Under the pieces are notes generated by a model. That model was not told where the DNA came from. It did not search any database and saw nothing but the letters and a program-made list of their open reading frames with translations. This document shows positions 35,606 through 48,447 of a DNA stretch of 64,000 nt, one piece after another (position 1 is the stretch's first letter; every line of letters starts with the position of its first letter). The stretch spans positions 658,369 to 722,368 of the forward strand of contig JAWPML010000001.1 of assembly GCA_033344915.1 (NCBI GenBank), given 5' to 3'. Source of the DNA: Acidimicrobiales bacterium. GTDB taxonomy: Bacteria; Actinomycetota; Acidimicrobiia; Acidimicrobiales; Aldehydirespiratoraceae. Position numbers and translations under genes: made by a program.

Positions 35606-36792
35606 CCGAAGCCGCGCCGCGTCTGCACGGCTGGGCGGGATCGATCCGGTTCCGGCTGACCGTGCTGTACTCCGTGCTGCTGTTCGGACTCGCGACGGTC
35701 GTCGTCGGCCTCATCTACGCCGGCGTGGCCCGCAGCCTCGAGAAGCAGAACGTCTCGCGCACCGAGGAGTGGGTCGCGATCTTCGAGGACCAGCAGGGCC
35801 GCGTGGGGATCGCGACGGTGGAGACCGAGCAGCCGGACTATCTGCTCCTGTTCGAACGGGCGGTCAACGAGCAGGCACTCGACCAGCTCCGCACCTACGC
35901 CTTCGGGGCGCTGGGGCTGTTGTTCGTCGGAAGCCTCTTCGTCGGCTGGTTCGTCGCCGGTCTCGTGCTGCGTCCCGTGCGGCGGATCTCCGATGTCGCG
36001 AAGGAGATCGAGGCCACCGATCTGTCGCGTCGCATCGAGCTCGACGGCCCCGAGGACGAGCTCAAGGAACTGGCCGACACGTTCGACGGGATGCTCGGCC
36101 GCATCGACGATGCGTTCGAGTCGCAACGGGAGTTCATCCACGAGGCGAGCCACGAGCTGCGCAATCCGCTCGCCGTGATCCGCACCAACATCGACGTCGC
36201 CCTCGGCGATCCGGATGCCTCCGCCGAGGATCTCCGCTCGGTCGGCGAGGTCGTCGGCCGCTCCGCCGAACGCATGTCCACCCTCGTGGACGACCTCCTC
36301 CTGTACGCCCGCCACGGCACCCGCGAGATCCGCCGGGAGGACGTGGACCTCGTCGCGGTCGTGAACGACCTCGTCGAGGAGTTCGGCGCGGCGGCCGAGG
36401 CCAACGGGCTCGATCTCACGGCGGACGTCCCCGCCGTCGCGCTCCCGGTGCGCGGCGACGGTCAGGCCATCCACCGGGCCGCCGCCAACCTCGTCGCCAA
36501 TGCCGTGCGCCTCGCTCCGGCCGGCACGACCGTCACGGTCGCGGCGGCCGACGAGGGCCGCTGGGTCACGCTCGCCGTCATCGACGAGGGTCCCGGCATC
36601 GACACGGAGGATCAGATGCGCGTCTTCCAGCGTTTCTGGCGGGGGGACAAGACGGCCGCCCGCGTTGCCGGCCGATCCGGCCTCGGGCTCACCATCGTCC
36701 GCCAGATCGCCGAAGCCCACGGCGGCCGCGTCGAGCTCGAATCCACCCTCGGCACCGGCTCGCGCTTCACCCTGCGCTTCCCCCGCACCTGA
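35602..36792 (+). CDS. Sensor histidine kinase (HAMP, HisKA, HATPase)
   Basis: 396 residues. Membrane helix at about 17-40, a short outer sensor of about 55 residues, a second helix at about 98-123, HAMP (PVRRISDVAKEIEATDLSRRI), phospho-acceptor His184 in EASHELRNPLAVI, N box RAAANLVANAVRLAP, G1 VIDEGPGID, G2 GRSGLGLTIVRQIAEAHGG. All catalytic motifs are intact. The sensor domain is small and shows no known fold. The stop codon lies inside a 21-bp perfect hairpin, which should end the operon. Confidence 0.94.
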   Translation: MTEAAPRLHGWAGSIRFRLTVLYSVLLFGLATVVVGLIYAGVARSLEKQNVSRTEEWVAIFEDQQGRVGIATVETEQPDYLLLFERAVNEQALDQLRTYAFGALGLLFVGSLFVGWFVAGLVLRPVRRISDVAKEIEATDLSRRIELDGPEDELKELADTFDGMLGRIDDAFESQREFIHEASHELRNPLAVIRTNIDVALGDPDASAEDLRSVGEVVGRSAERMSTLVDDLLLYARHGTREIRREDVDLVAVVNDLVEEFGAAAEANGLDLTADVPAVALPVRGDGQAIHRAAANLVANAVRLAPAGTTVTVAAADEGRWVTLAVIDEGPGIDTEDQMRVFQRFWRGDKTAARVAGRSGLGLTIVRQIAEAHGGRVELESTLGTGSRFTLRFPRT

Positions 36793-36831
36793 GGTGAAGC
36801 GGGGTCAGACCCCCGCTTCACCTCAGGTGCG
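36784..36831. terminator. Bidirectional terminator hairpin, perfect 21-bp stem
   Basis: Arms 36784-36804 and 36811-36831 are perfectly complementary around the 6-base loop TCAGAC; the top of the hairpin is GGGGTCAGACCCC, the core shared with repeats at 27.1 and 31.8 kb. It covers the kinase stop codon and abuts the stop of the convergent VOC gene at 36833. Confidence 0.8.
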
Positions 36832-36832
36832 A

Positions 36833-37204
36833 TCAGCCGAGGCAGAACTCGTTGCCTTCGGGATCGCGCAGCACGATCCATCGCTTCTCGTCGTTGCCCC
36901 GCCAGATCGGACTCCCGTCAGGCGTCTCGCCGTCCTCGAGCGTGGCGCCGAGGCGCAGGAGGCGTCGGACCTCCTCGTCCGGGTCGGGCGAGGCGAGGTC
37001 GAGATGGATACGGGTGTCGGTCCGGGGCTCCTCGACCTGCAGGAACAGGAGATGGCGCACGCCGCGAGGGTCGTTCTTGGTCAGACGGGTGCGGCTGTCG
37101 TTCGCTTCCGGATCGACGGAGTAACCCGTGGCCTCGGCCCAGAACCGTCCCAACGACAACGGATCTCGGCACTCGAAGGTGATGTTCAGGATGAAAGCGG
37201 TCAT
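36833..37204 (-). CDS. VOC/glyoxalase-like domain protein
   Basis: 123 residues from ATG 37202-37204. ILNITFECRDPLSLGRFWAEATGY is the typical first beta-alpha unit of actinobacterial VOC proteins, with VHLDLASPDPDEEVRRLLRLGAT (written IHLDLAS here) and a C-terminal WIVLRDPEGNEFCLG. Members are small metal-dependent or binding proteins (glyoxalase, bleomycin resistance); many have no known substrate. It diverges from the HtrA gene with 99 bases between starts. Confidence 0.86.
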   Translation of the reverse strand: MTAFILNITFECRDPLSLGRFWAEATGYSVDPEANDSRTRLTKNDPRGVRHLLFLQVEEPRTDTRIHLDLASPDPDEEVRRLLRLGATLEDGETPDGSPIWRGNDEKRWIVLRDPEGNEFCLG

Positions 37205-37291
37205 GAGATGGGTTGGGTGTTCCGACGGAGTGGGAGAATCGTTTTCATTCGATTTTCTCCCCTCCTTACGAATCCTTTCACTTTCAACCCG

Positions 37292-37297
37292 TACCTT
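37292..37297 (+). promoter_or_regulatory. -10 box TACCTT, leaderless start of htrA-like gene
   Basis: TACCTT, 6 bases, then ATG 37304. The DNA just upstream (37240-37290) is unusually AT-rich for the window, in keeping with a promoter. Confidence 0.55.
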
Positions 37298-37303
37298 CTG
37301 CAC

Positions 37304-38764
37304 ATGGATCGAGACCCATTCGAGCCTCCGCACGGCGAGGTTCCCCCCACCTCGCCGGGCTGGTCCGCCGATGAGCGGTCGCTTCCCCCGACAGCCGCAA
37401 CGGATGTTCCCCCCACCGTTGCGGTGCCGTATCCCCCCACGGCAAGCGGAAGCGACCGCCCGGCGGACCCCAACCCGCCGGCTCCGATCCCCGTGCCGCC
37501 CCCGCCTCCGGCGCCGATCTCGGCTGCTCGTCCCACCCCCGGGCTCACGCACCCGCCGGTGGCCGCCAATCCACCCCGACCCGGCAGCACCCAGCCGCTG
37601 ACGGGTCCCCCGAACTCGCCACCCCCACCGGGTGCGTTCGGTCCACCGCCTCTCGGACCGAAACGCCGCCGGTGGAGGGTGGCGCTGGTTGTGCTCGCCG
37701 TCCTCGCGATGGCGAGCACGCTCGTCGCGGCCGGCATCATCATCGGCGACTCGCTCAACGACGAGGTCGCGACCACGAGCCCGACGCCGGTCGACCGTCC
37801 GGTGCAGGACGCCGGCTCCGACGGGAACAGCACGCCGTTCCTCCCCATCGAACCCGGTCCGCTCGCCGGCGAAGAGGGTGAGGAACCCGTGGCGGATGTC
37901 GCCAGCGCCGTCTCGCCGTCGGTCGTCCTGATCCGAACGAACGAGGGTCAGGGGTCCGGCATCGTGTGGGACGCGGCCGAGGGCTACATCGTCACCAACG
38001 ACCACGTCACGGCCGATGCCGACACGGTCATCGTCCAGTTCGGCGACGGCAACCGGGTGTCCGGCACCGTGGTCGGGGGCGATTCGGCTCGCGACATCGC
38101 GGTCGTCCAGGTCGATCCGGAGGAAGTCGAGCTCGTGGAAGCCGTGTTCGCGCCGACGGAGACCGTGGAGGTCGGCCAGCTCGCCGTCGCCATCGGCAGT
38201 CCGTTCGGTCTCGACCAGTCGGTCACCGCCGGCATCGTCTCCGCGGTGAACCGCATCAACAGCTACGGCGGCTCCGACCCGAGCAACCCGGTCGACGTGG
38301 AGATGATCCAGACGGACGCTCCGATCAACCCGGGCAACTCCGGCGGCGCGCTGGCCGACCGCGAGGGTCGGGTCATCGGGATGAACACCCAGATCCGCAC
38401 GGACGGCGTGTCCACCGGCAACGTCGGCGTCGGCTTCGCGGTGCCGTCCGACACGATCGTCCTCATCGCCCAGCGAATCGTCGACGGGGAATCGCTCGAG
38501 CTCGCCCACCTCGGCGTGAGCGGCGCGACCCCGGCCGACGGCACCGTCGGGGCGCTCGTCCAGTCGGTTGTCGCCGGCGCTCCGGCGGCCAACGCGGGAC
38601 TCCAGTCCGGCGACCTCATCGTCAGCCTCGACGGCGAGCTCATCAGTTCGATGGCCGAGCTGTCCGCCGAGGTGAAGCTCTACCGACCCGGTGACCAGGT
38701 GCAGATCGAGATCCTGCGCGACGGCGAGCGCCTCGAAACCACCGTCACCCTCGGCAGCAGCTGA
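37304..38764 (+). CDS. HtrA/DegP-type membrane serine protease with PDZ domain
   Basis: 486 residues. A Pro-rich cytoplasmic tail (1-120), a basic stop KRRRW, one membrane helix (about 126-147), and an outer trypsin-like domain with the triad H234 (VTNDHV), D264 (ARDIAVV) and S346 (NPGNSGGAL). A PDZ domain follows at about 385-486 (LVQSVVAGAPAANAGLQSGDLIVSLDGELI). This is the actinobacterial PepD/HtrA layout: degrading or sensing misfolded exported proteins. Such genes often sit near a stress two-component system, as here. The start is fixed by the TACCTT box. Confidence 0.93.
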   Translation: MDRDPFEPPHGEVPPTSPGWSADERSLPPTAATDVPPTVAVPYPPTASGSDRPADPNPPAPIPVPPPPPAPISAARPTPGLTHPPVAANPPRPGSTQPLTGPPNSPPPPGAFGPPPLGPKRRRWRVALVVLAVLAMASTLVAAGIIIGDSLNDEVATTSPTPVDRPVQDAGSDGNSTPFLPIEPGPLAGEEGEEPVADVASAVSPSVVLIRTNEGQGSGIVWDAAEGYIVTNDHVTADADTVIVQFGDGNRVSGTVVGGDSARDIAVVQVDPEEVELVEAVFAPTETVEVGQLAVAIGSPFGLDQSVTAGIVSAVNRINSYGGSDPSNPVDVEMIQTDAPINPGNSGGALADREGRVIGMNTQIRTDGVSTGNVGVGFAVPSDTIVLIAQRIVDGESLELAHLGVSGATPADGTVGALVQSVVAGAPAANAGLQSGDLIVSLDGELISSMAELSAEVKLYRPGDQVQIEILRDGERLETTVTLGSS

Positions 38765-38792
38765 CCCGACACCGCTCGGCCCTCCCCTCCCC

Positions 38793-38841
38793 GTTCTGTG
38801 AGTAGAAGTCAGCACCCCGTGCTGACTTCTACTCACAGAAC
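38793..38841. repeat. 49-bp palindrome, left copy
   Basis: Two 23-base arms, starting GTTCTGTGAGTAGAAG, perfectly inverted around a 3-base loop (CCC); pairing extends to 25 bp here. The same 49-mer, differing only in the loop, stands at 39774-39822, so the two copies bracket the AbiEi/DUF559 gene. Confidence 0.9.
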
Positions 38842-38873
38842 GGAGTGTCACACGGGCGGTACATGCTGGCGGC

Positions 38874-39782
38874 ATGAGGGATGAACACCAGACCCTCGCT
38901 CGGGTGGCTGCGAGTCAGTACGGCCTCCTCTCGAATCGACAGATCGCGTCGGCCACGGGGTGCCCGTCGTCCGCACAGCGCCTCGTGCGGACGGGACTGC
39001 TCGAACGCCGTCAACGGGGCGTCTATGCGATGTTCGGCACGCTTCCGCGTTGGGAGGCCGATCTCATGACCGTCGTGCTGTCGGCGCCGCGCCTCGTGGC
39101 CGGGAGCCACCGAGCGGCCATACGGCTCTGGGGCTTGCGGTCCATCGACGACGAGATCGAGGTCAGCGTGCGTTACCCGGGTGACCTTCGCAGCGATCGG
39201 GCGATCGTTCATCGGAGTCGAGATCTGACCGAGCATGATGTCACCTTCATCGAGGGCGTTCCCGTCACCTCGATGGCCCGCACCCTGTGTGACGCCGGCC
39301 TGATCTTCGGGGAAACTGAAGTCGTGCGAATGGGTCACCACGCGCTCGCGAAGGGTGTGCTCACGCCGGCCGAGTTGCAGCGCTACAGGGAGCGGGTTGG
39401 TCGCCGGGGCCGGACCGGCGTCGGGGCGATCGACCGGCTTCTCGCATCGCTCCCGCCGGGCGTCGACAGGGCGGACTCGGGCCCGGAGATCGAGATGGCG
39501 TCCCTCGTTCAGCGGTACGACCTTCCCGCGCCCGTTTGGCAGCATCCGGTCGTCGCGCGCGGGAATCGCTACGTGCTCGACTTCGCGTATCCCGAGCAGC
39601 GGCTCGCGATCGAGTACGACGAGTATCTCGAGCACACCCGGCCGGAGAAGTGGGCCGCCGACAAACAGCGTCAGAACGATCTCGTCGAGGTCGGCTGGAC
39701 GGTCATCCGCTTCGCCTGGACCGACCTCCGCGACCGCCCCGACGCGGTAGCGCGAAGGATCCGTTCGTTCCTGGTTCTGTGA
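38874..39782 (+). CDS. AbiEi-like winged-helix protein with DUF559 (Vsr-like nuclease) domain
   Basis: 302 residues. Residues about 8-60 (ARVAASQYGLLSNRQIASATGCPSSAQRLVRTGLLERRQRGVYAMFG) match the AbiEi antitoxin N-terminal winged helix. The middle (LSAPRLVAGSHRAAIRLWGL, VPVTSMARTLCDA) is the conserved connecting region. The end (YVLDFAYPEQRLAIEYDEYLEHTRPEKWAADKQRQNDLVEVGWTVIRFAWTDL) is a DUF559 domain of the PD-(D/E)xK/Vsr fold; acidic residues in LDFAYP and IEYDE could bind metal. No toxin gene (AbiEii) is adjacent. The right palindrome supplies the last codons and the TGA. The role is unknown; defence or mobile-element function is speculation. Confidence 0.8.
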   Translation: MRDEHQTLARVAASQYGLLSNRQIASATGCPSSAQRLVRTGLLERRQRGVYAMFGTLPRWEADLMTVVLSAPRLVAGSHRAAIRLWGLRSIDDEIEVSVRYPGDLRSDRAIVHRSRDLTEHDVTFIEGVPVTSMARTLCDAGLIFGETEVVRMGHHALAKGVLTPAELQRYRERVGRRGRTGVGAIDRLLASLPPGVDRADSGPEIEMASLVQRYDLPAPVWQHPVVARGNRYVLDFAYPEQRLAIEYDEYLEHTRPEKWAADKQRQNDLVEVGWTVIRFAWTDLRDRPDAVARRIRSFLVL

Positions 39783-39822
39783 GTAGAAGTCAGCACCTGG
39801 TGCTGACTTCTACTCACAGAAC
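39774..39822. repeat. 49-bp palindrome, right copy
   Basis: Same 23-base arms as 38793-38841, loop CTG in place of CCC; 47 of 49 bases identical; the stem extends to 25 bp plus the 1-base loop T. It overlaps the end of the nuclease-like gene and contains its stop codon. Confidence 0.9.
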
Positions 39823-39853
39823 CGGAAAGCGGGGCCGGTAGGATCCGGCTCGC

Positions 39854-40930
39854 ATGTTGCTCATACTCATCATCGCCATTGCCGCGGTCGCCATCGTCGG
39901 CGTGTCGGCATTCGTTCTGCTCCGGGACCGACGCGACGACCTCGTCATCGACGATCCGGCGCCGACGGCCGTCGAGCCAGCGGCCGACACGGTCCCCGTG
40001 GTGGAGGAGGCGCCCAGGCCCACGTTCCGCGACCGCCTCTCGACGGCCCGGTCGGCCCTCGGCGGCTACCTCGGATCCGTCTTCACGGGCGGCAAGATCA
40101 GCGCCGAGACGTGGGACGACCTCGAAGAGGCGCTCATCCGGGCCGACGTCGGCGTCACCACGTCGGCCTCGATCATCGATGCGGTCCGCGAGAAGGTGGC
40201 CGAGGGCGGCATCGAGGACACCGGCGAACTCCCGGCGCTCGTGAAGGCCGAGATCGTGGCTCGCCTCGAGGGCTTCGACCGGAGCCTGTCAGCCGACACG
40301 GTCGCGGCGGGCGGCGAACCCGGACCCGCCGTCTGGCTCTTCGTCGGCGTCAACGGCGTGGGCAAGACCACCACGATCGGCAAGCTCGCCCATCGTGAAT
40401 CCGCCGACGGCAAGACGCTCGTCCTCGCCGCCGGCGACACCTTTCGCGCCGCGGCCGCCGAGCAGCTCACCATGTGGGCCGAGCGCAGCGACGTGGACAT
40501 CGTCCGCGGCGCCGAGGGCGCCGACCCCAGCTCGGTCGTCTTCGATGCGGTCGAGCGGGCCGGAGCCCGCAACGCCGACATCGTGATGGCCGACACTGCG
40601 GGTCGCCTCCAGACCAAGACGAACCTCATGGAGGAGCTCGCCAAGGTGCGGCGCGTGGCCGAGAAGGGCGTCGGCACCGTCACCGAGACCCTGCTCGTCA
40701 TCGACGCCACCACCGGTCAGAACGGCATGTCGCAGGCCCAGCAGTTCGCCGAGACGGCGGACGTCACCGGCGTCGTGCTCACGAAGCTCGACGGCTCCGC
40801 GAAGGGCGGCATCGTCATCGCGATCCACTCCGAGCTCGGCGTGCCCGTGAAGCTGGTCGGCCTCGGCGAGGGGATCAACGATCTCGTGGACTTCGATCCG
40901 ACCGAGTTCGTCGACGCCCTCTTCGAGTAA
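39854..40930 (+). CDS. ftsY: Signal recognition particle receptor FtsY
   Basis: 358 residues. N-terminal membrane helix (LLILIIAIAAVAIVGVSAFVLL, 2-23), as in actinobacterial FtsY, an acidic spacer, then the N domain (FRDRLSTARSALGG...EEALIRADVG) and the SRP GTPase: P-loop GVNGVGKTT (165-173), insertion-box DTFRAAAAEQL, DTAGR, TKLDGSAKGG. It docks SRP-ribosome complexes at the membrane for co-translational insertion. TAGGAT lies 9 bases before the ATG. Usually smc precedes it; here the AbiEi/DUF559 gene and its palindromes do. Confidence 0.96.
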   Translation: MLLILIIAIAAVAIVGVSAFVLLRDRRDDLVIDDPAPTAVEPAADTVPVVEEAPRPTFRDRLSTARSALGGYLGSVFTGGKISAETWDDLEEALIRADVGVTTSASIIDAVREKVAEGGIEDTGELPALVKAEIVARLEGFDRSLSADTVAAGGEPGPAVWLFVGVNGVGKTTTIGKLAHRESADGKTLVLAAGDTFRAAAAEQLTMWAERSDVDIVRGAEGADPSSVVFDAVERAGARNADIVMADTAGRLQTKTNLMEELAKVRRVAEKGVGTVTETLLVIDATTGQNGMSQAQQFAETADVTGVVLTKLDGSAKGGIVIAIHSELGVPVKLVGLGEGINDLVDFDPTEFVDALFE

Positions 40931-40949
40931 CCGCCGCCAGCCCGTCCGC

Positions 40950-41381
40950 TCAACCGGCGAACGACACACCGCAGGCCTGGAGCTCCCGGTCGAGCTCCAC
41001 GATCGACTCGTCCACGACGGCGGTGTCGGTGTTGTCGCGAGCGGCGTCGTATGCCTCGGGCCAGTCGAACACCTCGAACTGCTGGCCGGCGACGAAGGCG
41101 AAGTCGGACAGGAAGTTGACGGCGTCGCGCAACTCGAACGGCGCGGTCGTCTCGACAGCGTAGAGCGCCTCCTTGGCCGCGTCGTAGTCCCCGGCGGTCG
41201 CCGACTGCGCGGTGCCCGCGAACAGCGGCTCGAGCCCGGCGAGCCCCTGGGCCCCGCTGCACCACGCGGCCGAATCGAAGTCCGGCTCGCGGGTGCCGTC
41301 CCCCCGGGCCACGATGGCGGCGATCGCGAATCCGACGATCAGGGCACCGATGATCAACCACTGGCGGGGGGAGAGCTCCAT
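40950..41381 (-). CDS. Single-pass membrane protein, function unknown
   Basis: 143 residues from ATG 41379-41381. One membrane segment (PRQWLIIGALIVGFAIAAIVARG, about 5-27), then an outer helical domain of about 115 residues with two Cys (AAWCSGAQ and LQACGVSF), possibly a disulfide. No family recognised. The mature part resembles in style the outer domain of the protein at 284-871 (Cys near both ends, helical), but I cannot show homology. It lies antisense between ftsY and ffh, out of the operon logic of its neighbours. Confidence 0.7.
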   Translation of the reverse strand: MELSPRQWLIIGALIVGFAIAAIVARGDGTREPDFDSAAWCSGAQGLAGLEPLFAGTAQSATAGDYDAAKEALYAVETTAPFELRDAVNFLSDFAFVAGQQFEVFDWPEAYDAARDNTDTAVVDESIVELDRELQACGVSFAG

Positions 41382-41441
41382 GGCCGCGCAGGCTAGCGGG
41401 GCGATCTGCAACGTCTCGGGTCGGCGTTACGCTCAGCAACC

Positions 41442-42899
41442 ATGTTCGAGACGCTGTCCGATCGCTTCGACTCCATCTTCAAGGGCATCCGCGGACGCGG
41501 GAAGCTCACCGCCGACGACGTCGACGAGACACTGCGCGAGATCCGTCGAGCCCTGCTGGAAGCCGACGTCAACCTCGACGTCGCGAAGAACCTCACGGGC
41601 CGGATCCGTGAGCGGGCGGTGGGGGAGGAGCTCTCGAAGGCCCTCAACCCCGGTCAGCAGATCGTCAAGATCGTCCTCGAGGAGCTGACGGCCAGCCTCG
41701 GTGGCGAGGCGATGAAGATCACCTACGCCTCGAAGCCGCCCACGGTCGTGCTGATGGCCGGCCTCCAGGGTGCGGGCAAGACCACCAACACCGGCAAGCT
41801 CGCGGCCTGGTTCAAGAAGCAGGGCCGCAATCCGTTGCTCGTCGGCGCAGACCTCCAGCGCCCCGCCGCCGTCGAACAGCTCCGCACCCTCGCCGGCCAG
41901 GTCGGCGTGCCCGTCTTCTCCGAGCCGACCGATCCGGTCGACGTCGCCCGCAAGGCGATCGACGAGGCGAACCGCATCGGTCGCGACGTCGTCATCGTGG
42001 ACACCGCCGGTCGTCTCGCCATCGACGAGGAGCTGATGGCGCAGGTCGGCCAGATCTCCGCCGCGGTCGAGCCCGACTACACGTTCCTCGTGGTCGACGC
42101 GATGACCGGTCAGGACGCGGTCACCGTCGCCCACGCCTTCAACGAGACGCTTGCGCTCGACGGCGTCATCCTCACGAAGCTCGACGGCGACGCCCGCGGT
42201 GGTGCCGCGCTCTCCGTCAAGGAGGTCGTGGGCAAGCCGATCGCGTTCGCCTCGACCGGTGAGAAGCTCGAGGACTTCGAGACGTTCCATCCCGATCGCC
42301 TTGCCAGCCGCATCCTCGGCATGGGCGACATGGAGACGCTCATCGAGAAGGCCGAGGAGGTGTTCGAGCAGGAGCAGGCCGAAGAGGCCGCGGCTCGGAT
42401 GCTCGAGGGCACGTTCACGCTGGAGGACTTCCTCGAGCAGATGCAGCAGGTCAAGAAGATGGGCCCGCTCGGCAACCTGATGGGGATGATGCCCGGCCTG
42501 CCGAAGGAGGCGAAGGACGTCGAGATCGACGATCGCCAGATCGCCCGCATCGAGGGGATCATCCACTCGATGACACCGGCCGAACGCATCGATCCCGATG
42601 TCATCGACGGGTCTCGTCGCCAGCGCATCGCCGTCGGTTCGGGCGTGCAGCCCAACGAGGTCAAGCAGCTGCTCGACCAGTTCGGGCAGATGCGCAAGAT
42701 GATGAAACAGTTCGCCGGGTTCGGTACGAAGAAGATGAACCCGAAGGCCCGCAACAAGGGCAAGAAGGGCAAGAAGCGCAAGGGTGGACGCGTGACGGAG
42801 AAGGGTCAGGCGAAGGTCCCGAAGACGCCGCTGTCGCTGCCGGGCCTCGAAGATGCCCTCTCCGGTCTGGACGACGGCGACCTGCCCGGGCTGAACTGA
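41442..42899 (+). CDS. ffh: Signal recognition particle protein Ffh
   Basis: 485 residues. N domain ([21 protein letters not shown]), GTPase P-loop GLQGAGKTT (107-115), [36 protein letters not shown], then the Met-rich M domain (about 300-435: [33 protein letters not shown]) that binds SRP RNA and signal sequences, and a Lys-rich tail ([11 protein letters not shown]). It delivers nascent membrane proteins to FtsY. The C-terminus extends about 50 residues beyond E. coli Ffh. TACGCT stands 8 bases before the ATG. Confidence 0.97.
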
Positions 42900-48334: not shown

Positions 48335-48368
48335 TCACCCGGCGGCCCTGCCGCCATCTCGTGACAGT

Positions 48369-48406
48369 CACCGGCTGCGGTCCGCTTCGGCGGCCCGCAG
48401 CCGGTG
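48369..48406 (+). terminator. Strong hairpin between phnD and phnC (attenuator)
   Basis: A 12-bp perfect stem (CACCGGCTGCGG / CCGCAGCCGGTG), one T-C mismatch, then 4 bp closed by a TTCG tetraloop. It lies 34 bases after the phnD stop and 42 bases before the phnC ATG, with no T tract. Partial termination or 3'-end protection here would give more binding protein than transporter. Confidence 0.7.
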
Positions 48407-48447
48407 GCGGTTCCGACCCGCTACCCACCACCCACGTAGGCGACGAA

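Follow-up and report, generated by a model that had tools for sequence, protein, structure and literature searches.

REPs are usually explained by RAYT transposases. In the literature on them, the REP/RAYT arrangement is described as a gene flanked by extragenic palindromes, with dispersed copies of the same type, several types per genome each beside its own gene, and inverted doublets (PMC3116915, PMC3733652, PMC8266576). A second point of reference is the AbiEi protein of Streptococcus agalactiae, whose binding sites are reported to be 23-bp inverted repeats with a 3-bp spacer (PMC3985639). We analysed a window of 64,000 nucleotides, by which we mean the whole stretch of DNA under study, from the 4.48 Mb single-contig genome G000. 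It holds a gene that is probably the single-copy owner of a family of short palindromic repeats, similar in organisation to RAYT and REP but with an unrelated enzyme. Among the matches listed in a search of the open-access literature, which took in no bioRxiv preprints and few subscription papers, we found no report linking DUF559 or AbiEi-nuclease genes to palindromic repeats. Neither the enzyme nor the repeats belong to a kind that this literature describes in such a pairing; their organisation resembles a REPtron.

The features of the locus are given in Table 1. In both 49-mers the 23-base arms are exactly complementary, and 32 bases separate the left palindrome from the ATG. The upstream neighbour is an HtrA-like protease gene (trypsin and PDZ domains) that ends at 38764. 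The first-pass annotation had described paired 49-bp palindromes with 23-base arms and 3-base centres, a gene that begins just past the left one and stops within the right one, and a unit lying directly before ftsY; all of this holds at the coordinates of Table 1. Folded as single-stranded DNA, each palindrome reaches -26.1 kcal/mol, and none of 200 shuffles is as stable. A 16-base half-site, with up to three mismatches allowed, occurs four times in the window, always within the two palindromes, against 0.22 expected. On the half-site count relative to expectation, the exact complementarity and the folding relative to shuffles, a chance origin of the 23-bp arms was rejected. An Rfam search of 37000-42000 gave a sub-threshold miRNA match and nothing else, and a scan of 38700-39900 showed no sigma-70-like site.

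Table 1. Features of the palindrome-bracketed gene and its downstream neighbour (positions in the window).
Feature	Position	Strand	Basis
Left palindrome, 23-3-23, centre CCC	38793..38841	.	sequence read, folding
Right palindrome, 23-3-23, centre CTG, holds the gene's TGA stop (39780-39782)	39774..39822	.	
AbiEi_4-DUF559 gene, 302 aa	38874..39782	+	ORF list, Pfam
Residues 1-194, predicted AbiEi antitoxin fold (N-terminal winged helix-turn-helix and C-terminal domain)	38874..39455	+	AlphaFold2 model, 6y8q_A, AbiEi_4 residues 6-52, PADLOC AbiEi models
Residues 200-302, predicted homing-endonuclease/Vsr-like nuclease domain; D236 and E247 invariant	39471..39779	+	3r3p_A, 1cw0_A, two family alignments
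ftsY, downstream neighbour, context outside the unit	39854..40930	+	SRP54 and SRP54_N domains

Pfam searches place AbiEi_4 in the N-terminal part of the window protein and DUF559/MTES_1575 nuclease models at residues 231-300, with the MTES_1575 REase score just under the model cut-off, and PADLOC AbiEi models also match. The AlphaFold2 model (mean pLDDT 93.2, pTM 0.87) was compared with known structures by Z score and also run through Foldseek, and sequence profiles agree for the nuclease half. Residues 1-194 match the Streptococcus agalactiae AbiEi antitoxin (6y8q_A; Z 13.3, 182 aligned, rmsd 3.4), and residues 200-302 match both the catalytic domain of I-Bth0305I (3r3p_A; Z 12.4, 92 aligned, rmsd 2.1), a homing endonuclease of the EDxHD family, and Vsr (1cw0_A; Z 10.4, 98 aligned, rmsd 2.1). 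The sequence-profile match of the nuclease domain to 3r3p has an E value of 5e-6, and there is a weaker fold likeness to PvuRts1I and AbaSI. As modelled, the protein combines an AbiEi antitoxin fold with an I-Bth0305I/Vsr-like nuclease. In family alignments of 25 and 33 members D236 and E247 never vary, and E205, H254, D263 and R266 are invariant or nearly so in the same alignments. One homolog (L219) was left out of alignment A3 for an in-frame stop. L040 has the same element and is apparently the same locus, where a homolog carrying the stop is still bracketed by repeats; it is perhaps a decayed owner gene.

With the AbiE type IV toxin-antitoxin system the locus shares the AbiEi fold, but there is no adjacent AbiEii toxin gene, the neighbours being the HtrA-like protease gene and ftsY. 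Unlike AbiEi, the window protein has a C-terminal nuclease, and the repeats lie on both sides of the gene and elsewhere in the genome. Between the window 49-mers and the AbiEi inverted repeats of PMC3985639, only the 23-3-23 geometry agrees, and this may be coincidence, since other family members have other arm lengths. The nuclease domain has the catalytic fold of I-Bth0305I and Vsr but is fused to AbiEi, and the whole gene sits between two chromosomal genes with no intron or intein seen; unlike with I-Bth0305I, what is proposed to spread is not the gene alone but also the short palindrome. MITEs and TIRYTs (the latter as described in PMC3733652) likewise combine short non-coding copies with a coding unit that has similar ends, but here the unit holds no transposase of a known type and each end is a complete palindrome.

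The half-site is found 12 times in G000, making up six palindromes: the two at the window gene and four dispersed copies, one each at 446899, 2166108, 3776648 and 4020182. The dispersed sites are the ilvN/ilvC gap, a gap between short-chain dehydrogenase and cyclase genes, the convergent ends of an epoxide hydrolase (EH) gene and a pyridoxamine-oxidase gene, and a position 9 bases past groEL, so that each of the six copies is either at the end of a gene or between genes. The palindrome at the EH site (L020 5049-5095) provides the stop codons of both convergent genes, each of which ends Val-Leu-stop. One of the six copies has matched changes in both arms and two have a damaged left arm. With up to three mismatches, the 47-base pattern is absent from the 297 other genomes of the order sample, and the G000-type half-site is absent from the six other genomes of the genus. 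The first-pass annotation had pointed to a search for the 49-mer in the genome and its relatives; this turned up six copies in G000 and none in the relatives sampled, and the other DUF559 genes have different repeats beside them. It had also held that wide occurrence of the palindrome at unrelated gene ends would speak against a link with the gene. Four of the six copies are indeed at such ends, but which type of palindrome occurs follows the genome and the DUF559 gene it carries.

The likeness to a RAYT or REPtron lies in an owner gene flanked by its repeat, in the window and family-wide, in dispersed extragenic copies of the same type, and in more than one type per genome, each next to its own gene. 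The differences concern the enzyme and the repeat itself. The owner is an AbiEi-Vsr-type nuclease by predicted fold, with matches covering residues 1-302, and not an IS200/IS605-like tyrosine (HuH) transposase. Unlike in REPs, no GTAG or CGTC tag marks the ends of the aligned palindromes (the 14 47-mers all begin with TTCTGTGA, and GTAG occurs only inside the G000 core), and the window type has only six copies. Because the defining HuH transposase and GTAG tag are absent, the locus is not a member of the REP/RAYT group, though it would work like one.

Other hairpins occur nearby. Those around GGGGTCTGACCCC or close variants (window 27097, 31808 and 36784-36831; L019 6054-6089; L020 1708, 2248 and 7283) form a second REP-like repeat family in G000. 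A hairpin at window 48367-48408, whose 19-base arms (two mismatches at most) enclose a 4-base loop, is unrelated in sequence to the window palindromes.

Homologs of the window gene were found in 68 of the 100 genomes of the relatives sample and, in a profile search across the phylum at E ≤1e-15, in 91 of 246 genomes (own genome counted in both), often several per genome; gene counts from the latter search are lower bounds, at most nine candidates having been scored per genome. G000 itself has five family members. Bracketing was scored by comparing the 300 bases before each homolog with the 300 after it, in both orientations, with a threshold of ≥16. The order set comprised 34 loci, reduced to 28 by leaving out six with truncated flanks; five of the 28 are the own genome's genes. 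The phylum set comprised 60 places picked by hand down the hit list, at most a few per genome, before flanks were inspected, skipping places near contig starts and including some loci from the same order as the window. L112, left out of the first pass for a short flank, is counted among these 60. A named set of 49 loci, 15 of them truncated or partial and left unscored, gave 34 scores, overlapping the other sets.

Matching repeats were found around 23/28 loci of the order set, 36/60 of the phylum set and 29/34 of the named set, leaving 5/28 and 24/60 of the first two not bracketed at the threshold. By comparison, the threshold was reached by 2/118 control genes (taken from the window, from eight loci of the own genome and from the 60 phylum loci; 121 initially, before three DUF559 paralogs were removed), by 8/702 same-sized intervals elsewhere in the loci and by 14/3,490 flank pairs drawn from different genomes (Fisher p 3e-19 for the phylum loci against the control genes). 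The order-set null contains shuffled pairs with high scores (99th percentile 56); we attribute these to orthologous loci. At least one bracketed gene was present in 51 of the 66 genomes sampled. Bracketing by matching repeats is not a one-off but is common among homologs. The DUF559 gene of G303, a genome of the same genus, has a palindrome at its 3' side and none at its 5' side.

Among 61 bracketing elements, which include two added G302 loci orthologous to own genes, 35 fold with z below -2 (RNA parameters) as against 0/61 control stretches, and the remaining 26 have no clear fold (z above -2). Brackets are inverted in 32 cases and direct in 29, and such near equality is expected if each end is itself a palindrome. 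A simple hairpin score (200-base flanks, ≥14) separates DUF559 genes from other genes weakly (8/120 vs 4/138, p 0.001); better separation comes from the paired-repeat score and from how the paired elements fold. The family had no match in 50,697 phage records and five partial, weak matches in 72,556 plasmid records, and so seems not to be carried by phages or plasmids. The first-pass suggestion of a REP-like repeat coupled to a nuclease gene of its own agrees with the homolog survey, with the dispersed copies and with the types being lineage-specific.

The repeats differ between owners. In 1,799 comparisons between bracketed proteins with 25-55% identity the element score peaks at 14.5, and across eleven pairs at 55-70% identity it is at most 18.5. 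Five pairs exceed 70% identity: in three of them most of the element is common to both members (scores 29, 33 and 53), while the remaining two score 10.5 and 14 and have short or weak elements. Judging from these comparisons, in which close pairs are few, each owner seems to have its own repeat, which changes fast while the two sides of any one gene stay alike.

A paralog at G000 4413858 (L014, L022) carries a high-copy element. Its bracketing element, ATCTCTGGTCACGAAAGGGTCG, occurs with up to three mismatches at 94 sites in G000 (51 plus, 43 minus) and 37 in G302, whereas four other genomes of the genus have none and G301 has one site, with three mismatches; the reversed control pattern is absent from all seven genus genomes. 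The 94 sites fall into 43 clusters. One plus/minus pair makes up each of 24 clusters, most often with a spacing of 49 bases (19 pairs). This predominance of inverted doublets is REPIN-like and is seen for the paralog type only. G302 (C264) encodes a 92% identical ortholog of the paralog, bracketed by the same element, while the homologs compared from G299, G300, G301 and G303 (G298 left out) are at most 52% identical to it.

Within the genus, palindromes with different cores occupy corresponding places. G301 has a 62-63% identical ortholog of the window gene at the same htrA-ftsY site, and its palindromes keep the outer TTCTGTGA with a different core. This type has three copies and occurs in G301 only among the seven genus genomes; the third copy stands at the EH/pyridoxamine oxidase site, where G000 also has one, and the site is arranged as in G000. 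G302 is a close relative of G000 (EH and IlvC 97-98% identical) and has palindromes at two of the G000 places, between ilvN and ilvC and after groEL, again with a different core, but none at the EH site. The G302 type, found at five places and only in G302 among the seven genomes, has no DUF559 gene within the roughly 1.5 kb read on either side of its palindromes (L202, L204-L207; less at contig ends), in an assembly that is 81% complete and breaks inside ftsY. The G303 type is found at the EH site, between ftsY and ffh (L159) and at the end of that genome's own DUF559 gene. The L159 copy, with outer TTCTGTGA, stands just before ffh, which was recognised by its start only.

Overall, the EH site has a palindrome in 4 of 10 genomes read (G000, G301, G303 and G298), the ilvN-ilvC site in two of nine (G000 and G302, with none in the other seven) and the groEL site in both genomes read. 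In all seven testable palindromes the core is that of the genome in which they lie (EH: G000, G301, G303; ilvC: G000, G302; groEL: G000, G302); the G298 type, with a single known copy, was left out of this test. Fourteen of the 18 known copies could be aligned as 47-mers, the four 48-base copies (three G302, one G298) being left out. The outer eight pairs are nearly invariant, 14 inner pairs change on both sides, and 91.6% of cells pair. The stem covariation score is 0.534 against 0.165 in shuffles (reached by 0/500) and at most 0.166 when slid; of five covariation measures, two are not above shuffles, namely pairs changed on both sides (97/500) and further pair types (143/500). The aligned cores fit repeated rewriting with palindromy kept, although gene conversion or independent insertion of palindromes at shared hot spots could mimic concerted core change.

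Read by eye, the htrA-ftsY site of six relatives (G299, G300, G298, G034, G084, G304) contains neither gene nor palindrome. Relative to these sequences the window unit is an insertion. This bears out one part of the earlier suggestion of a mobile or excisable cassette, while excision between the palindromes finds no support: it was rejected as the origin of the empty ftsY sites, 0/6 of which retain a palindrome. At two sites one end of the palindrome coincides with pre-existing bases, AGAAC before ilvC (G299) and GTTCTG where the epoxide hydrolase gene ends (G300). This hints at a GTTCT-type insertion target, two sites being too few for a claim.

The palindromes might instead be operators of an AbiEi-type autoregulator, with the dispersed copies as a regulon or left-over sites and the nuclease serving defence. 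AbiEi is reported to repress its own promoter through 23-bp inverted repeats set 3 bp apart (PMC3985639), and the left palindrome is close upstream of the start codon. We nevertheless find an operator role rather unlikely. The right-hand palindrome sits at the 3' end and runs into the coding sequence, a dispersed copy provides the stop codons of two convergent genes, another directly follows groEL, and the element of the paralog occurs in 43 clusters; regulation would also leave the concerted core change at distant sites unexplained. The presence of the GGGGTCTGACCCC family means that other repeat machinery may exist in G000, and another enzyme, for example a RAYT/HuH transposase, might move the palindromes and have captured the DUF559 genes as passengers. 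This is distinctly unlikely: passengers would not be expected to have their own repeat type at each locus, yet the two flanks of a gene match while elements of less related owners do not, and no transposase-like ORF was seen beside the six G000 copies (by eye, and for ten neighbours by Pfam).

A role in restriction-like defence, in which palindromes act as self-marks and the nuclease spares DNA carrying the cognate mark while cutting foreign DNA, would suit a nuclease fold common to Vsr and, more weakly, to PvuRts1I and AbaSI. However, marking a genome of 4.48 Mb would seem to take more than six copies, the G301 type has only three, and we regard this explanation as highly improbable. Ordinary gene-end hairpins (terminators) unrelated to the gene would account for the location of all six copies at gene ends or in gaps, but we disfavour them as hardly credible: no terminator-like site was found in 38700-39900, such brackets are rare at control genes, and the palindrome types are lineage-specific.

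The analysis shows that gene and palindromes are associated; the mechanism below is a proposal. If the gene is the owner of its palindromes, as we prefer, the window protein would bind, cut and bring about copying of the repeat in the following way. The AbiEi half would bind the palindrome as an inverted repeat, and the Vsr/homing-like half would cut there or nearby, or else at GTTCT-like targets that are still unoccupied. Repair of the break, or replication, would then copy the palindrome into new places and also rewrite older copies to the current core, and occasionally the whole palindrome-gene-palindrome unit would be carried along. Under this proposal, copying by repair would lead to the palindrome being spread and homogenised, and to the whole repeat set following a change in the owner's specificity. 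The outcome would be a selfish repeat that spreads slowly and is not known to benefit its host.

In its general form the proposal has, in our judgement, about an even chance of being correct: a class of selfish palindrome-owner genes, widespread in Actinomycetota, would have invented REP-like repeats independently of RAYTs, with an AbiEi module aiming a homing-type nuclease at its own palindrome, spreading it to further gene ends and rewriting old copies, such that a change of specificity shifts all of them. If true, there would be a second, unrelated enzyme with palindromes of its own, and a likely owner for orphan palindromic repeats in such genomes. Some of the genes whose only annotation is DUF559 or AbiEi family antitoxin would also gain a function, and there would be a system, testable in vitro, where repeat and protein specificity change together.
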